Both the position numbers and the translations under genes were made by a program. DNA of 64,000 nt from Dermatophagoides farinae. Taxonomy: Eukaryota; Arthropoda; Arachnida; Sarcoptiformes; Pyroglyphidae. The notes under the pieces were generated by a model. That model had not been told where the DNA came from. It saw only the letters and a program-made list of their open reading frames with translations, and made no database searches. Position 1 is the first letter of the stretch. Every line of letters starts with the position of its first letter. Positions 11,301-27,200 of this stretch are shown piece after piece. Where the stretch lies: contig NC_134677.1 of the NCBI RefSeq assembly GCF_024713945.1, positions 682,001 to 746,000 on the forward strand, read 5' to 3'.

Positions 11301-13137
11301 ATGAAACGAAAAAAAAATCTTCTTACCTATTGCTGTTATTACGGCCATTATCATTATTACGTGGTTGTCGACCTGATTGAACTGTATGAAATCAAATTAA
11401 ATCAAAACAATTGATTAGAATTACTTTCGATAGAAAAAAAAGACATTGGTTTACCTCGTGAAAAAACAAATTCATGATCATCTTTACCGTCGCTTTGATG
11501 AAATGTGGCCGGTGCTTTACGTAATTTCACCGTCGATAATTGTGACCATACATTACCGAATAATGTATGATTACGACGATGCATTGGTTCCCAATCTGGT
11601 CCGTTTTCAAAATTATCTTCATCCAAATTACCGGATACGGCACGACGAATTTCTGGGCCAAATTCATGTAAGCTACGCAAACCAGCCTGTAATGCTACCG
11701 TATCTTCGAGATCACGATTATTCATACGTTCACGTTCTTCTTTCTTTTTCTTGAAACGACGAAAATAATCCTGTATCAAAAAGGTGGCATAAAATTTTCC
11801 CACAGTAACTTCATCATCCGTTGCCGGTGGTACAACTTGATCCAATAATTTTGGACTAGTACGTTTCCATATTTTGCGTATAACAGCACGCAATTCTTCA
11901 TTTGCTTCGTCAATATTACCATCGGTTTTAATTTTCAACGCTGTACGTACGATGGCAAATAATGTTGCATTAAACATAACGGTACCATCACTATTCAATG
12001 GCATATTCATCGATACTAATCGTTTACAGGCAACTCTATGTGGACAAAGTTTTCCAAAACCAAGTGGTGGTGATATTTTACGTAACAATGTAACAACATC
12101 CAAATGTTTGATACGTCCTTTAGCATCAGGATCATATTCCGACCATAGCCGTACAAATTCATCCAAATGATGTGGACCAAGTATTGACCAATCACGTGTT
12201 AGATAATCAAAATTATCCATAATAACAGCAACAAAAAGATTGATAATCAAAAATGAACACAATATATAAAATGAAATAAAATACGGTATGGCCAACATTG
12301 AACCACAATTTGCATTACGATCTTTAGATCCTTCATCTGACAGTGGATCACATCGTACATCACGTGTATCGGCACAATCCATCATTATTTCTTGCCATGC
12401 TTCACCAGTAGCCGAACGAAATAGTACCAAAATGGCTTGAAAAAATGTTTGAAAATTATTATTTCTTGTTATACTGGTTTCATCATCTAGGCCAATTTTT
12501 CCAAAAACTTGCATTCCAATCACAGCATAAATGAAAAATAACATTAATATCAGCAATGCAACATATGGTAGGGCCTGTTTTTTTTGTGTATCAAAATCAA
12601 ATGAGAAAATGAAATGAATAAGAGAATTTCAGAAGAACCTAACCTGAAATGATTTCAAAAATGTCCACAACAATGTTCTGATGCCTTCACCACGGCTTAA
12701 TAATTTTACTAGACGCATTACACGAAATAGTCGTAAAAATGTTGGTCGAACAGTGGCTTTTCCTTTGGATTCATGTGGCTATAAAATGAAAAACAAAAAA
12801 CAAAAAAAAAAAATTTAGCTAGTCCGAATCTAAGCAATTTGTACAAGAAAAAAAAACAAACAAACAAACATTGATTTGTTCGAAAACAATATCGATTAAA
12901 CTGCCCAATACGATAAAAAAATCGAAACAATTCCAGGGATCACCGAAATAATTCTAAATGTATCGGAAAAAAAATTTAGTTCATGGTCATTAAGGGTCAC
13001 ACACACACACACACAAACAAACATACCTTAAAACGGAAAGCAAATAATTTCAATACAAATTCCACTGTAAATAATGCAGTAAAAATTATATTCAATACAT
13101 TAAGCACGTATGAATATGATTCTGGTTGATTATTATA
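8379..13137 (-). other. Calcium channel domain IV and long C-terminal tail
   Basis: Exons 13137-13027, 12953-12870 and 12778-12644 give IVS2, IVS3 ([13 protein letters not shown]) and IVS4 ([19 protein letters not shown]). Exon 12574-11455 holds IVS5, the pore ([12 protein letters not shown]), IVS6, an EF-hand-like region, pre-IQ and IQ ([18 protein letters not shown]). Exons 11381-11327, 10931-10083, 9783-8573 and 8503-8379 encode about 740 mostly low-complexity residues (Asn, Asp, Ser and His/Tyr runs). They end in a conserved distal domain ([30 protein letters not shown]) that crosses the final intron. Confidence 0.92.
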
Positions 13138-15225
13138 CTATACATATGAATGAATGAATGAATACGATGTGTACGTGCATGTAGTATAGATTACACCATT
13201 GGGAATGAATGTTTTTTGGTAAATAAAAAAAAAACAAAAATAAAAATCAAATTCATTTATTACACACACACAAACAGATTCAGAAACACAACTTACCCGC
13301 ATTGCCAATGTAATTGTATTGAGTAAAATCATTGCAAATATTAGATATTCAAAATAATGTGATGTCACTAGCCACCATACTTTATATTGGACACGTGCTA
13401 GAATAATTGAGAGAGAAAAAATAAATGTGAAAAAAAATTTTGTTTTAAAAAAATAAAGATTTCTTGAATGAAAAAAATCATTCCATTCCATTCATTCATT
13501 TTTGATGAATTTTTTCTTTTCGAAAAAAAATAAGAAGAAAATTGCCCAGAATCATCATCATTTTTTTTTTATATTTACGAAAAGAAAAATTACAGACATT
13601 TATTACAGAAAAAAAAATGTAATTCCGGAAATGGTGGCAAGTTTCCAAGTGGATCAACTGCAAAATTATAGTGCATTTTGACATTCATGTGTGTGTGAGT
13701 GTGTGTGCGGGTATTCGGTTATTCATATATAACCGAATTATTATTATTTACTACCGAGCTACAATTTACTGCGGTGGTTATTTATCACACACACACACAC
13801 AGACAAAAACATTTGGGACAAATTTCATATGTTGGATGATGAAAGAAAATGAAAAAAAAAACAACAAACCTTTTGGTATATAACGCCGTACAGGACGAGC
13901 TTTCAATGCAAATTCAATACAATTTCGTTGATTTTTATCCAATTCACAATTTTTATATTCCTGTTCACCTTCATTCTGGAAAGTAACGATAACGAAACCG
14001 ACAAAAATATTGACCATAAAAAATGCAATGACAATAATGTAAATTATATAAAATATGGCCACATATGGACGATTATTATAAACAGGACCATAATTTTCTG
14101 CATGTGAATCAATAGATCGATGTAATAGACTGTTTTTTTTTTGTAGACAATGAATGACAAAGAATGTATGTTTGTTATCTCTGTATTTTTTTTATTTTCA
14201 AATCAAAATCAATCTGATCACTTACTCTGGCCATCCTTCAAATGTTGATACAGTACAAAGTGTTAACATTGCTGCACCGATATCATCAAAATGAAATTTA
14301 TTTCTATCCCATTTACGTTCCGATATTTCGGGATTGCCTTCATCATCATATGAAATGAAATATCCTCTATGATTATTTTTTTTTGAAGGAAGAAAAAAAA
14401 TTCAAAATTCAAAATTCAAAATTTTGGTCAAACAATTATATGGTAACAAACTTACTGGCATTCTTCTTCAACACTTTTCGATATATCCGTACATTCAAAT
14501 AGTGTTCCCTTTATAAGCGAGAGAGAGAGAGAGAGAGAGAGAAAGAAAACAAAAATTAAAGATTCATATCGATCAATCGATTATGTGTGCGTGTGTAGTT
14601 GTCGTGTGTGATCAAGTGATGAAAAATTGACAACATTTAACATGCAATATTAGCAGCAGCAACGGTGAAAGTTGCTGAAATGATGCAAAAGGTGACGTAA
14701 ATTAATTAGTGCTATATTTATTCACACAAAACAAGTTTGAAATGTATGTGTGTAAGTTGGTGATGAATTGTTGCAAAAAAAAAAAAAAATTTCAAATTCA
14801 TTTCATTCAATCAAATGAAACGAGTGAATGAATGAATATAAGAAAAGAAAAATGAAAAAAAATAGAATTTCGCTTCAGGATAATGTTCGGCATTTTGAAA
14901 ACATTGAAAAAAGCAAAAAGAAAAAGTTTTCAAACTTATGTACGGGCTAAATGTTTCACATGAATATTTTTTTTCTGGTGGTTTTACGACGACAACGACA
15001 ATAGAAGAATATAAAAATTGAATTTTGAATCAAATTGAATTTTCGTGATGAAAAAAAAGAAGAAAAATGCCACAGATGAAAATACATAAATAGCGAGCAT
15101 AAAATAAATATTATGCCATACACACACACACACACATGAATAATAGTCAAATTCAGTTTTTTTTACTCGAATTGAATTTCTATGAAAAAAAACCAATATG
15201 GCACGGGCGGCAAGTAAATCAAAAT

Positions 15226-15256
<31 letters not shown>

Positions 15257-18200
15257 GTGATGCTGGTGGTAGCGTTCATTGATTTTGATTTGATTATGAT
15301 TCACAAGCTTGAATCGAAACAGAAATAACGATGATGGTTAAATTTTGTCCAAAACCAAAACCAAAAAAAATGAAAATGAAAATGAAAAACAATCGGCGCA
15401 AGAAATAAATAAAGTTTTTTTTCAAACTCAAAAACTTTTGTTTTCGTTTTTTTTCTGAAATTCAACGATTAAGATGCAAAAAAGGCAAAAAAAAGCGAGA
15501 AAGAAAGTAAAATCGATTTCAATAACAATGGTTGATTATGATTATTATATGACCATTTCAAAGCAAAAAAAAGAAAAAAGAAAAAAAAGTTCAAATGTGG
15601 ACGCTACACTGACATACAAACACACAGAAAAAATAAATTGATTTTCTCTCTCTCTCTCTCTCTCTTTACCCAAATCACCATTATCGTTATTGTCGTTTTT
15701 TTTCATTCCAATTGTGTTTCTGTCTCGGTTGGCAGATAGAAAGAAAGAATAATGGTCCGAAAAAAAAAGAATTCTAGCCGCTATTTGCACACAAATGAAT
15801 GGAAAGAGAGAGTGAATCTTTTTGTCTGTTTTGTTGTTGTTTTTTTTCTTCGTTTTCGTTTGCAAATAAAAATTTTTCGAGAATTAAAAACAAAAAAAAA
15901 GTCAAAGAATTTTTCAATGAATAAAAATCAAATAAGATTATTCAATGAAATGATAAAAAAAGAAAAAATGTCACCAGAAAAGGAAAATTGATCTTTTTTT
16001 CCCTTTTATCAATTAGTTGATTGATTTTTTTTTTCGTTTCACTAATGCCCGGAATGCGTGGGCGATAAAAGTGAAAAGTTTCCAAATGATGATGATAATA
16101 ATGACCAAAAGATCCTGAACAACAAAAAAAATCAGTAATTTTCTTTGTTTCATATCACAATGGTGGTACACTAGTGTTCCAGCCATTATGACATCATTTG
16201 GGAATTTGAACGATGTGTGCGATTCTAAAACCGAACAAACTTTTTATTCTTATAAATAGCCACAACACACAGACAAAAGAATCGAAGAATTTCAGCTAAG
16301 CCGATAAACGAAACGAAATAAAAAAAAATAAAAGTTTTTCCGGTTTTTGTTGTGGATCAATTTTTTTTTGTTGTAGTAGAATGAACATGTATAAAATAAA
16401 GTTCACCATGAGTGGTGGTTGTGTAGGTAGTGGGCGTTGTTTAATAGTTTTACAAATGCAAAAAAATACCCGAAAGCGCACAAGCGTCATAAAGAGATAG
16501 ATGTGTGTGTGTGTGTAACATGCAAAAAAAATTTTTCAATGATGAAAATTCAACCTGAGAATGAATTTGAAATAAATCAGTATTAATTGATTATATCAAT
16601 ATTACCTTGAATAATTGCACGGCAACAACGGCAAACATGAATTGTAGTAGATATGTAACCATCAAAATTTGTCCAATCATTTTAATAGCAACCAATACTG
16701 ATTTGACAACAAGCTTTTGATTGATTGATTGATTGATTGTTGTTGTTAACACATACACAGACAGACAAGTGGAAAAAACACGTGCAAAATAACAAAAAAA
16801 AACATTCACAACACGTGGACAATGTGAAAGTGAAAAAGTGAATATCAAATGGATGAGTGTAAGAGTGAATGTGTGGATTCATTGATTGTGACAAATGAGT
16901 GACAAATGATTTTTGGGTTAGAAGTTGGATTGGAAATGGAAAGAAAAAGAAAAGACAGAGAAAAACAATGAGAGAATGAAGCAAATTTTTTTTTCTACAT
17001 AAAAAAATTCTTTCTCGAATCGCACTCACACACACACACAAGAATACAAATATATCAAACACGCGTGAACAACAACAATCGTGATTAGTAGTGGCCATTG
17101 TGATTTACATTATATAATAATTACATGCAACGTGTGTGTTTTGTCGTTGATAAGAAAAACAAAAAACGAAAAAAAACAAAAATAAAGCAAAAGCAAGCAA
17201 AAAACAAAATTTTTTTCTGTTTTGTCGATTGAATCAGTATGTTTTGTTTTTTTTTTTTTTTAAATTTTTTTTTTACCTTGAATAACTGACAGCCAATTGC
17301 AGCAAACATAAAATTGAGCAAGAATGTCACCTGATTGATGGATTTGAATAATTTTTTTAAAAAATGAAATATGGCCAACCAAACAAACAAACGGAAAAAA
17401 ATTAAAATGAAAACGAAAACGAAAAATTGGCGAACAAAAACAAGAAATAAAAATCAAAAAAAAAAAAAAAAAATGAAATGAAATGAAAATGAAACAAAAT
17501 AAAATCATCGTTTGTGTTGAACAAATACCTACCAACATGATATTACCAATGGTTTTAATGGCCACAATTACACAGGATACGACATGCTAAACGTGTACAC
17601 ATTTATTTCATTAATAAAATTTTGTCCCAAGATAAAATGAACAAATAAAGAAAAAATGAATGACTATGTGAATGTGTAAACCATTCATTTATTTTATCAC
17701 TCACACAAACACACGCTTAAACGCCCATTCATTATACAGAAAACTCACTTTTTTTCACATCACACACGAACATTCACTTCACTTCACTTTACTTTACTTT
17801 ACTTTCAAGAATCTCTCCATAAGAATTTTCGGATATGCAAATTCTTCTTATTATTATTTTTTGTTGTTGTTGTTGTTGTTGCATATCCAGAATTTTCTGG
17901 CTACATTCTATCTACATTGAAACTATCTCATTATGATTATTATTGCAAAATATTTATTTGCAATAAGTAGTGAGAGAAAATTGACCGAAAAAAATGGGCA
18001 ATAATAATAAATTCACCAAAAAAAATAGAGAGAAAAAAAAACGCAAACATCTCATACCTTGAGACCTTTAGCACGATTTATTGCACGCAATGGTCTTAGC
18101 ACACGTAATACACGAAGAATTTTGATTACAGAAAATGTACCATTGCTAGATGTTGGTAAAATAAAAATAGTTAGACCATGAAACAAAAATTATGAATTAT

Positions 18201-21200: not shown

Positions 21201-24200
21201 GAGCAAAAAAAAAATTTAAATAAATTGTTTGCGCGTGTGTTTGTGTGTGTGTGTGTGCGTGCCTGGAAAGGTATCGATGACTATGAAAAGATATCGGTTT
21301 TTTTCAAGTCATTACCCAATCTCCTGCTGCTGTTGTTGTTGATCAGAGCAAAGTTGAGAAAATTCTTAAAACAACAATAAATTATGACGATGGAAAAAAA
21401 CTTTGTGAATAAACTCATTTTTCAAAGTGTAAAAAAATGTGAAAAAACTTTCTTTTGGGTAAAAAAAAAATTTCAATGTTTTTAAAAAAAAAAAAACACA
21501 CACGGTTATTATTATTATACAAAAACTTACGTCCACGTTCACGGCCACGATTACCACCAACACCGCCACCAACACCACCGCTGCCACCACCACCACCACC
21601 ACCAACGGTATCTTTATCATCTGGATCAATATCTTCAGCTTGTGTAATCCAATCCAAATAACCACGTAAATCTTCTTCAATTTGTTGTTTTTCTCTCAAT
21701 TTATGAAAATCACCACGTGCTTTAGCTTTTTCTCTTTCTTTTGAAAATTCACTATTCAATTTGGGAAAATATTGATGATCAATAAATCAATAAAATAGTA
21801 AGCAAGCAATAATACTACTTACCCGCTTAAAACACCCAATACAAGATTCATAACAAAAAATGAACCCAATATAATCAGACTAATAAAATAAATCCAAGGC
21901 CACGAATTTCCGACGGAATCGTTGATCTTTTTGTTTGTTTGTGCACGATGAAAAGTTGAGCGAATATTCCGGAAATGTGAAATTGGAAAACAAAAGAATT
22001 ATAAAAAAACAATAATCAGGAATTAATCAGAAATCACATTGATAAAGATTATGTTGAAATTGAAAAGTTTTTCAATGAAAAAAAAATCAACATTGACAAC
22101 AACATGATGAATAAATAAATATAAATACAATCTCTGATGCAATCACATCCATTCGTACTTTTCTGAAGATTAATTTCAATTTCAAATTTACTATATTTCT
22201 ATATTTTGGCTATAGAATTTCTTTTCTTTTTCATCATCATCATCATCATCATTTTCGCTTGGTTTGTTTTGGTTGAATGGTAAAGAAAAAAAAATCTTAT
22301 TGACGGGTTAGTAGTAGTTGTGGTATATCGTTGGGTTTGTCAATCATCATCAAACGCACACACACACACAATTTATTGTTGACAAATATTTCAGCTGAAC
22401 AAACAGCCCTAACCAATTTTTCTCAGTTGTCGATGATGATGATGATGATGAAAATGAAACAAAATAAAAAAAAAATCTGGGTCAAGTAGGCTATTTCTAT
22501 TTTTTCATGAGAAGAAAAAAATGATAAATTTTTTCTGACAGCACACACACACACACAATTCCAGATTGAGAATTTCCAAGATGTGAAAATTAGCTTTTTT
22601 CGTTTTCGTTATTGTTGTTGTTTGTTTGTTGATGACAATGATTAGATTTCAATTTCAATTTCATTATTGGGTTCTGGTTTGTATCAATCAATCGATTCAT
22701 TTATTGATAAAGCCACTTACATAGTAAAGAACATCGGTCCAACCTTCCTGTAAAAATTGAAGAAAAAAAATAAGTAATAAAAACATAATCATGACATTTA
22801 ATCGATGGAAAAAAATAATAATAATAATATCGATTTCCATCAATGACAAACAAATCAATGTTGCAAAATTACTACTTACATTGGTGACACATTGAAATAC
22901 TGTCAACATTGCTAGGCCAAAATTATCGAAATTTGTAATACCATCATTTGGTCCTTCATAATATTCACGGCAAACATATGGATCCGGTGATTCATCAATA
23001 TCGTGGCATTGATATTCACCACCACAAAGCATTGGTTCTTTCATCATTTCATCTATTTGGGTGGCAAATGGAAAAAAAGAAAACGAAAAAAATTAATTTT
23101 TTTTTCTCGGTTCAAAATTGAATCATTTGGTCAATGTAATTGTGAAAAACAATTTCAAAAGATCGTCACAAGGGATTGATTTGAAGAAAAAAAAATAATC
23201 ATCATTATTGCCAAGAAAAAAAAACAAACTAATGATTATTACCAGCAATTTTTTTTCTCATATATCGTCCCATTTGATGTTTTGATTAAACACAACCATC
23301 ATCATCATCAGCATCATCATCATCTTCGTATTTAATTACTTCTCATTAAACAAACACAGAAACTGAGAAATGTAAACAAACAAATAGCTTTTTTCATCTA
23401 CTTTCTCGTTTTTTTTTTTTTTGTTTTCACAAAACATCAATCGAACGGTTGAAAATGAAATTCTCAATAGATAGAATTCTAATTCTTCACTTTCACTTTA
23501 TTTATTTATTTTGTCGTCGAATGATTGTGAAAATTAACTATTTCCACCGGCATGCACACATTTGTGTGGAAACGAGTTAGAACGACAAAAAAAAGGCTCA
23601 ATGTGTTAATGTTTGTGTGTGTGTGTGTGTGTGTGTGATTCCAATGAAACTTACTGGTAATATTATTGAAACAAGTACGATGCATACGGCCAACAAATAA
23701 TTCCAGACCAATAATGGCATAGATAACGATAACAAATATCACAAGTAATGCAATATGTAATAAAGGCACCATTGCTTTGATGATTGAATTGAGCACAACT
23801 TGTAGACCTGAAACGGAATGGAATGGGAAAAAATTATAACATTAATTAAATTAACAAAATGAATGAATTTAAAATCAATTTTCAATTCAAATTATTAATG
23901 TGTACGTGATATACGACAAATTGTATAATGGGCAATACGTGTTTTGGCATAAATCCTAATCAATCTGAACATTCAACAACACCAACAACGCCAACGACGA
24001 TTAATCAACAGAAACGACAACGACGACAACGACATCGAAAACAATTTGAATCATCATCATCATCGATAATTTATTCAGAAATCAATCAAAAATCATTTGA
24101 ATTTTTAAATGGTGGCAGTTCTAGTACTACTAGTATTAATAGTAGCAACGGTGGTGGTGGCAAAAATTTACGACGTACAAATGAATTATTACGTTATCTA

Positions 24201-27200
24201 TTACAATGTGAATCAATCGATGAATGGTCAAAATTAACATCATCGACATCGAAATTTCGAAACAATCCATTATTTCGTGATCAAACATTAACAAAAACCA
24301 TTACAAATAAACCAATAATGCAGATAAAAACTGATCAAGCATTTACAAAGCGAAAAATTCAACAAATGCGTTCCAATCTGGATCGATTACCGCCGGATAC
24401 AGCGTTAATAATAATGCCACCATTTTCAAATTTTGATATGATCATACCAGGTATATATCAAACCGGTACTACCGGTTTGATCATAGAAACCATGCAAGAA
24501 TCACGTATTCGAATGATTATTAATGCAACATATGAAATGCCATTATTGAAACAATCGGATATAATAACATTTCGTGTACCAGTGGAAGATGATTGTCAAG
24601 AACCAATACAACAATATTTTGACGATGTTGCCGATCTGATGGAAGCCATTCGATTACGTGGCCATTCATCCGTCATACATTGTATGGCTGGTGTATCACG
24701 TTCAGCAACATTAATATTAGCTTATATGGTGAAATATACAACATTCACATTGTATGAAGCATTTTTGCATATAAAATCCATACGACAACCAATCAGGCCA
24801 AACATTGGTTTCATTCAACAGCTAATACAATATGAAGCACGTGTGAATAATGGCAGAAAATCTGTGGATATGGAACAAATAGAACAATATTCAACAGTAG
24901 CAGCAGATCAACAAGAAAAAGTAAAAATTTTGGTACCAAAATTTTATCGTTTACATTATCCAGAATTATATGAATTGGAAATTCGTCGACAATTAAACAA
25001 TTCAAATTGTACTGATCAAAATAACGCCAATAACAATACCACCTAATAACAATAAATAATACAAACAAACGATCGATAATGATGATAAATAAAAAAAAAA
25101 TACAGAAAATTCGAAACATTCGAATGAAGCTGTTTTTCTTTTCACATATGACGTAATCAATTTTCAGTTTTCAAATTTCTTAATTTTTTGAATCAAATAT
25201 TGAATTCAAGAATAAGAAAAGAAAAATAAACACACAAAACCGACATGACGACGACGACGACGACAACAACAACAAAACGAACACGACGATGGCTTTGGCA
25301 ACTATTCTTCGATCAATCATTATTGATTTATTGATAGCTATTATATAAAAAAAAGAAAGAAAATTTATATGTTATGTTGTCATCATCATCATCATCATCA
25401 TCATTTTTTCGGGTTGTGATGTTCCAAATTTGTTCCAGAATTTTTTCTTTCTTTTTTTTATATTCTTTTGCTGTTGAATGTGTATTATTATTGCCATAAT
25501 GATGATGATGATGATGATGGAAAGAAAAAGGAAAAAAAAATACTGGTGGTGGTAGTAGTAGTAGTAGCGGGGGGGTGGTTGACAAATTTATTTTATTCTT
25601 TTTTTTCATATATGAAAAAAAAATATTGTCGAAAACCGAGAAAAAAAAATGTCAACGATCATGATGATGTTGAAACTTATGTTATTGATGCCGCTACCAC
25701 TACAACACTAATGAATATATCCGTTGACCGACGAGATGGGCCAACTGGACCAAAAAAAAAAAGATCATCATCATCATCGTCGTCGTCGTTTTGTGTAGTT
25801 TTATGCACATTTGCAATATTGGATGATGAATGTTTTGTGTGTGGGGGAGATTGGAACGCACACACACACACACACACACACACGGGCAAACGGATGGATT
25901 TTTTTTCTGCTGTTATTGTTGTTGTTGTTGGATCTGATATTTGACTCTCATATTAAATGGTTTGAATTTTTTGAGAATTTTTTTTCATCTCTCTCCCCTC
26001 TCTCTCTCTCGATCAACAAACAAACGATGAACAATGAGAAAAAAAAATTTTTTCTCAAAAAAAAGGAATTTTCTGCTATTTGTTGTTTATCATTTGGTTG
26101 GTCATTTCATTTTCGTTTTATATTCCAAAATTTTTAGTTTCTTCGTTTTCGTCGTCGTCGTCGTTGTTGTTGTTGTTGTTGTTGTTGATGATCCAAATGT
26201 AATACATAAATAAATAAATGTTCCAACGAGAGATAGATAAAAAAAAAGAGATACAGTTTTTTATTTTGGTTTGTAATGTCAATGTATCTCTTCTTTCTTT
26301 TTTTTTCTTTCTCAATCATCAATCATCATTCAGTTGGTCATTTTTAATGGTAGAAGCAATATATAGAGAATGAAGAGATTCTTGTGTCCGAGTTTGTTTG
26401 TTTTTTTTTCTCTTCGTATTCCCATGATCATTTCGTGTAAAGAAATCAAATCATTCAATATTCGATATTCCCGGTGTGTGTGTGTGTGTGTGTGTTTGAA
26501 TGTTTGAGTTTGTTTTTTTGCCCGGTAAATTCTGTCGTCTGTGAATAAAAATGTCTTCATCATCATCATCTTTTCTCTCTTGATCTGTAATACTGGATGT
26601 TGAAATTTGAATAAAAAAAAATTCATGACCCAAATAAACTAGTGGGCATTGAGAAAGAAAAAAAAAGTTTTTTTTTTCACGAGAAATTTGATATAATAAT
26701 CACCAAGCTACATACACACACACACAAACATGCATGCATAGAATGAATCGATAATTCTAGCGCCACCAATTTTTTTTCCCTGTTGTCACGGGATTTGTTG
26801 TTGTTCACATGATGATGTTGATGGATTTTTGTGTATGAATCAAATGGACAAACAAACAAACAGCCAAAAATCAACTGACCAGTTTGTTGAACCATATGGA
26901 ATAGTTGGAATTTTTTTTCAAATTTTCAATTCACTAGAAAACAATAGAATCGTACAGAATTTTTCATTGTTTTTTTTCAAGATTCTTGACATCGGTTATT
27001 TTTTTTTGTTGTGAAACGATTTTTACGCCATTTTGTTCATTCGTTTCATCCATTCATTGGTTGAATGGATGGTTGTTTCCTGTTGTTGTTGTTTTTTGTT
27101 GTTGTGATCCATTTGGAAACTTTAAGCGTTTTTATTTCGGCACTTTCACTTTGAAAAACCAAATGGTCCATTTCCTTCTAGTTTTTTTTCTCTCTTCTCC

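Follow-up and report, generated by a model that had tools for sequence, protein, structure and literature searches.

We found that the gene for the alpha-1 subunit of an L-type (Cav1) calcium channel, carried on the minus strand of the analysed window (the whole stretch of 64,000 nucleotides of Dermatophagoides farinae contig NC_134677.1), contains two cassettes for one and the same stretch of domain III, the first divided by an intron and the second an intact exon (Table 1). These very probably arose by tandem duplication and serve as mutually exclusive exons in the gene for the pore-forming subunit of an arthropod Cav1 channel. Each mature mRNA would take either cassette A, as two small exons spliced together, or cassette B, as a single exon, and the two resulting channels would differ at 14 of 36 residues in the helix that couples the voltage sensor of domain III to the pore and lines the III-IV fenestration. 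Exclusivity would probably be set by regulatory proteins or RNA structure at weak donors rather than by a built-in incompatibility, and the intron of A would most likely have been acquired once the duplication had taken place.

Table 1. The two cassettes, their introns and the flanking constitutive exons (positions in the window; a slash marks a splice junction).
Feature	Position	Strand	Junctions and remarks
Constitutive IIIS4 exon	18058..18145	-	donor AAG/gtatga, phase 0
Cassette A, first half (A1), 18 codons	17533..17586	-	tttag/CATGTC...ATGTTG/gtaggt
Intron inside cassette A, 202 nt, between the equivalents of Leu933 and Val934 (Cav1.1)	17331..17532	-	contains U tract
Cassette A, second half (A2), 18 codons	17277..17330	-	aatcag/GTGACA...TTCAAG/gtaaaa, weak donor
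Intron between cassettes A and B, 563 nt	16714..17276	-	
Cassette B, intact 36-codon exon	16606..16713	-	tcaaaag/CTTGTT...TTCAAG/gtaata; acceptor after (CAAT)n stretch
Intron downstream of B, 2,097 nt	14509..16605	-	
Constitutive turret exon, 53 nt	14456..14508	-	acceptor ttataaag/GGAACA, donor CCA/gtaagt

Recognisable channel exons lie between about 30.0 and 11.4 kb of the window, the outer ends of the gene being approximate. When compared with PDB sequences, cassette A and its flanks matched Cav1.1, Cav1.2 and Cav1.3 at E values of 1e-46 to 1e-52 across all 77 residues, and the first 11 sequences were all Cav1.1, Cav1.2 or Cav1.3, ahead of Cav3, Nav and Cav2 (best 60 of 66 matches). At the strict threshold used, all 11 PDB matches of a piece covering P-loop III and S6III are L-type, as are all nine matches of a domain IV piece. 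Judged by this kinship, the nearest relatives being L-type chains, the gene with both cassettes is L-type (Cav1), in agreement with the identity proposed in an earlier note on this DNA. Four pore motifs lie in order on one strand, EGWTD (I), TGEDW (II), TFEGW (III) and TGEAW (IV), and we take their glutamates to be the EEEE selectivity-filter ring of a four-domain channel.

In the 62.4 Mb of genome searched (22 contigs; G+C of the window 0.297), a 77-residue probe including cassette A found at least 12 places among the best candidates scored, five in the Cav1 gene and seven in other four-domain channels; no second Cav1 gene is apparent among these seven, their channel labels being assigned by reading. 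A DNA probe around B returned, genome-wide, only B itself and one 31-base match elsewhere on the same contig. Related loci sought through a conserved C-terminal Cav1 exon gave 71 pattern matches in a genome contig collection and 20 in a viral contig collection, and none was confirmed in either.

The first Cav1 intron that we read, at 29985-29090 (minus strand), resembles a minor-spliceosome AT-AC intron: its candidate junctions, exon GAATGGAA/ATATCCTTTT ... GATTAC/GCCATTC, keep the frame (EWKPFEW), and we recognised no clear U12 branch site in it. For the fly, the accessible text of PMC2831892 lists a GT-AG U12 intron in Ca-alpha1D (intron 3) and an AT-AC one in the T-type gene. Nested within the Cav1 intron that separates the IS4 exon from the IS5 exon, but on the other strand, lies a reading frame of 372 aa (23928-25043, plus strand) in which a dual-specificity phosphatase domain is recognised (Pfam DSPc, E 1.4e-31).

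Both cassettes, A as the sum of its halves, encode 36 residues in 108 nt, are in phase 0 at both ends and are flanked by GT-AG introns, and each aligns to residues 916-951 of Cav1.1 (His916 to Lys951, numbered after entry 5gjv), that is, the S4-S5 linker and S5 of domain III. This bears out the earlier reading of A and B as one and the same 36-residue IIIS4-S5 linker/IIIS5 segment, equal in size and phase and furnished with proper splice sites, and lying between the IIIS4 exon (which ends at 18058) and the turret exon (which begins at 14508). The statement that the frame is kept with both cassettes or with neither is likewise correct, each being 108 nt long and in phase 0.

The likeness of B to the S5 of Cav1.1 is far beyond chance. 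Its ungapped BLOSUM62 score against Cav1.1 916-951 is 106, whereas the 3,549-base region, copied 500 times by a first-order Markov model, gave at most 41 (mean 19.1, sd 5.6). Elsewhere in the window, the S5 segments of the channel itself excepted, the highest-scoring 36-mer reaches 30. Taken alone, B matched 11 distinct PDB sequences at E <= 0.01, all of them L-type. We also scanned 25 Cav1 exon stretches, among them neither IVS3 nor the N-terminal exon, for look-alikes up to 5 kb away that score at least 38 across 18 residues or fewer (a 9-residue exon is too short for scoring), and the sole convincing nearby duplicate is A/B; the remaining hits are between the four homologous domains, acidic and of low complexity, or hydrophobic and at the threshold.

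A and B have 22 of their 36 residues in common and differ at the remaining 14. Cav1.1 shares 28 of the 36 residues with A and 23 with B, and over the first 18 residues it differs from B at nine and from A at four. In a three-way comparison of the 36 sites, all three sequences are the same at 21, A alone agrees with Cav1.1 at seven, B alone does so at two (Gln939 and Val947), A and B agree against Cav1.1 at one, and all three differ at five. Each cassette thus agrees with Cav1.1 where its partner does not, B at two sites and A at seven, so neither was recently copied from the other.

At the nucleotide level the cassettes differ at 9, 8 and 21 of the 36 first, second and third codon positions, respectively; ten codons are identical, 12 differ synonymously and 14 change the residue. 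The method of Nei and Gojobori gives pS 0.72 and pN 0.24, hence dN of about 0.30 and dS of about 2.5, near saturation, and eight of the ten shared fourfold sites differ. Since synonymous sites are near saturation, the duplication appears to be old, and since replacements have stayed low meanwhile, both copies have probably long been under selection, unless most of the synonymous change fell on the branch of just one of them; this argument concerns one 36-codon pair with nearly saturated synonymous sites, under an assumed mutation model and with no outgroup DNA. In simulations where one copy drifts neutrally from present-day A under an assumed A+T-rich mutation model (2000 runs), an outcome with no stop and 14 replacements or fewer was obtained in 83, 69, 43, 10, 0.2 and 0.0% of runs at 0.05, 0.1, 0.2, 0.3, 0.5 and 0.75 substitutions per site, so that the neutral model is not rejected at 0.2 (P 0.43) or 0.3 (P 0.10). 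Taken as a whole, the way in which A and B have diverged speaks for two functional alternatives and against an exon with a relic beside it.

That one cassette is nonetheless a decaying relic which is never spliced in, most likely B, as the more diverged copy and the one with a weak acceptor, seems improbable to us. B does lie further from vertebrate Cav1.1, with a few unconservative changes (His916 to Leu, Gln919 to Lys and Thr936 to Tyr), its donor (gtaata) is weaker than 15 of the 19 other donors read in the Cav1 gene, its acceptor follows a (CAAT)n stretch, and the simulation leaves room for neutral evolution as far as about 0.3 substitutions per site. However, neutral drift of 0.5 substitutions per site or more on that branch is rejected, and B has neither stop nor indel and has kept its frame and splice sites intact despite the near-saturated synonymous sites, as well as Gln939 and Val947. 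Moreover, the weakest donor is that of A2 (gtaaaa), which falls below all 19 others, and not that of B; the donor of A1 is weaker than 14 of the 19. The acceptor of B is pyrimidine-poor, and so are several other acceptors of the gene. Even less likely, and in our view hardly tenable, is that both cassettes are expressed non-exclusively, as ordinary in-frame cassette exons of which some transcripts contain both or neither. All combinations are in frame, so nonsense-mediated decay would spare double or zero inclusion, and we see no steric, U12 or frameshift barrier against them. Yet in the established topology of Cav channels a second S5 would add a membrane pass and a missing S5 would remove one, which should leave the pore loop and S6 behind it inverted. 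Because of this added or lost pass, products with two cassettes or none should not form channels even though the frame is kept, and it is from this topology that we infer the exclusive use of A or B.

A further alternative concerns the age of the pair, and is compatible with the preferred reading of A/B as mutually exclusive exons, so that the likelihoods of the two are not to be added. Exons 15 and 16 of Drosophila Ca-alpha1D, also an arthropod Cav1 gene, are annotated as mutually exclusive (PMC4174434, accessible text), and A/B might derive from the same ancient duplication, in which case the pair would be an old arthropod feature and only the splitting of A would be new. We regard this as possible, with more doubt than conviction. 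The near-saturation of synonymous sites, indicating an old duplication, would agree with it; as to the fly, the available portion of PMC9741552 counts two tandem events in Ca-alpha1D, out of ten independent ones across the Cav genes of human and fly, each at a different exon, and also cites an exclusive exon in cockroach para. On the other hand, the channel region encoded by fly exons 15 and 16 is not given in the accessible parts of PMC4174434 and PMC9741552, nor did we find it in those of PMC12370356, PMC7235277, PMC11828482, PMC5660682, PMC2831892 and PMC3303723.

As to how a choice between A and B would be enforced, the accessible text of PMC5740500 describes as built-in exclusion devices a mismatch of U2 and U12 sites, steric crowding (less than 50 nt) and a frameshift upon double inclusion, none of which a pair must have in order to be exclusive. 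None of them fits the cassettes, whose sites are all GT-AG and, by eye, without U12 donor motif, which are separated by 563 nt, and whose lengths are divisible by three. The earlier claim that a dedicated splicing mechanism is implied is reasonable in this light, given that the three mechanisms described in that portion of PMC5740500 do not apply. Because these devices are inapplicable and the donors weak, control by splicing proteins or RNA structure appears probable, and the weak donors of A2 and B would suit regulated exons.

The earlier note had also proposed folding the introns to look for competing base pairing, a known though not obligatory mechanism of exclusion. Nothing stands out clearly among six intron pairs compared with 30 Markov shuffles each, for which 4, 25, 23, 1, 25 and 8 shuffles were equally or more stable, the pair with a single shuffle as stable being the A-B intron with the intron downstream of B. 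Of 86 inverted repeats, the 25 longest consist for the most part of simple repeats (A/T, GA/CT and CA/GT). In the intron downstream of B, a GA tract of 23 nt (15643-15665) is, as RNA, perfectly complementary to the CU tract (14522-14544) that immediately precedes the turret exon; both are simple repeats, and they could pair in the RNA. The U tract in the intron of A might likewise pair with an A tract just after the A2 donor. We mention both potential pairings as leads only.

For the intron inside A, loss or gain in one copy had both been envisaged in the note. Gain in A is favoured here, and loss less so, because all 11 other S5 segments that we read in the genome are without an intron at the matching place. 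These 11, the only S5 segments looked at, comprise B, domains I, II and IV of Cav1, six segments in the Cav2, Cav3, Nav and NALCN-like loci (L003, L004, L008, L009, L011 and L014) and a second stretch of L011. Most likely, then, the intron was gained in A after duplication, since a single gain is simpler than the alternative, a gain in the Cav1 ancestor followed by loss from B. Human L-type genes have an undivided exon of about 36-codon size here, which we mention as background and have not used as evidence.

Mutually exclusive exons are well established in Cav genes, and what appears new, as far as we have checked, is the site of A/B, along with the splitting of one member; by titles and the beginnings of abstracts, we found no report in the openly licensed literature of exclusive exons at IIIS5 of an invertebrate Cav1. 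Vertebrate Cav1.2 has the exclusive exons 8/8a (IS6), 21/22 (IIIS2) and 31/32 (IVS3), whose choice alters dihydropyridine sensitivity, and its drug-binding regions other than IS6, IIIS5 among those named, lie in constitutive exons (PMC3596553, accessible parts). These pairs resemble A/B in belonging to the same gene family and in being tandemly duplicated exons for membrane segments. However, A/B aligns to the IIIS4-S5/IIIS5 stretch of Cav1.1 and not to IS6, IIIS2 or IVS3, and the same parts of PMC3596553 mention no split member, whereas A is split by an intron.

Exclusive exons in an invertebrate Cav gene are also found in Drosophila cacophony, which has the pairs IS4A/B and I-IIA/B; the IS4 pair is 33 residues long with 13 differences, and changes both activation voltage and localization (PMC11828482, accessible text). 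Unlike A/B, though, cacophony is a Cav2, the exons concern the domain I voltage sensor and the I-II loop, and one exon stands against one exon. A precedent for a set of two exons that is mutually exclusive with an alternative set is human CUX1, but this is a transcription factor gene, and the available portion of PMC5740500 describes no intron-acquiring duplicated exon there. Nor did we find an example of a split exclusive exon in the accessible part of PMC2257972.

Two related four-domain channel genes of the same genome, which serve as controls, also contain adjacent duplicated exons. The para-like sodium channel gene (L011; contig C9, about 3.094-3.097 Mb) has two adjacent IIIS3-S4 exons (..SRLEGMR and ..SRFQGMR), presumably the known mutually exclusive pair. 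In the NALCN-like gene (L009/L034; contig C5, about 2.171-2.175 Mb) adjacent duplicated pore exons carry either E (LSLEGYND) or K (LSFKGWLD), a difference in the domain III filter; an E/K pair of NALCN exon 31 has been described in chelicerates and myriapods (PMC4436565, accessible text), and the pair seen here would fit an animal of either group. The gene names and the IIIS3-S4 label are our own reading of the sequences. The known para and NALCN pairs, which these resemble, are exclusive exons of related four-domain channels, as A/B would be, but they concern other genes and segments, and here both members are single exons as far as read. A scan of 44 loci for duplicated exons flagged the NALCN pair at a cut of 33 bits and missed both A/B (32.7 bits) and the para pair; at 30 bits, in the three loci concerned, all three pairs appear, along with some low-complexity and cross-domain hits.

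Concerning what the swap may change, the accessible text of PMC10761187 gives Val932, Thr935 and Gln939 as the nifedipine contacts in S5III of Cav1.1. At these positions A has Met, Thr and Asn, and B has Leu, Thr and Gln. Half of the six nifedipine contacts encoded by constitutive exons are changed as well (Phe1008 to Cys, in the domain III pore helix, Met1057 to Val and Met1366 to Ile), the other three being kept (Ser1011, Phe1060 and Tyr1365), and for this reason we do not claim a dihydropyridine switch by the Asn that A has for Gln939. The position of Ala1369 is changed too, and the drug pocket is altered outside the cassettes (14226-14366, 13870-14128 and 11405-12577, minus strand).

Cassette A otherwise has the usual L-type linker and S5. 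In B, Thr935 and Gln939 are kept, the linker has diverged, and the end of S5 is Cav2-like, with Val-Val-Ala at 944-946 versus Cys-Ile-Gly; over its last ten residues B is the same as human Cav2.1, the corresponding stretch being FACIGVQLFK in Cav1.1 and FAVIAVQLFN in the Cav2 of the same genome. From the residue positions compared, the swap is predicted to touch both voltage-sensor coupling and the III-IV fenestration, and gating, together with the ligand contacts at IIIS5, would be expected to vary with cell or stage. We tentatively entertain, without quite leaning towards it, a broader picture in which one gene would give two channels by swapping IIIS5 between a Cav1-like A and a Cav1/Cav2 hybrid B, with different coupling and a different III-IV ligand fenestration, exclusivity having survived the insertion of an intron.

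If this is true, splicing has to decide between a unit of two exons and one that is a single exon, and the split cassette would test how exclusivity persists when one member of a pair becomes two exons. Searches that compare single exons by similar length could misjudge such split members: either half of A falls 18 residues short of B, and a length difference of 20 residues was allowed in one search method for exclusive exons (PMC5740500, accessible text). IIIS5 links the voltage sensor of domain III with the pore and carries the dihydropyridine contacts Thr935 and Gln939, and A and B would thus offer natural, ready-made chimeras for probing a Cav1-to-Cav2 change at its end. Where an animal has a single gene for each Cav type, mutually exclusive exons offer it an important route to calcium channel diversity.
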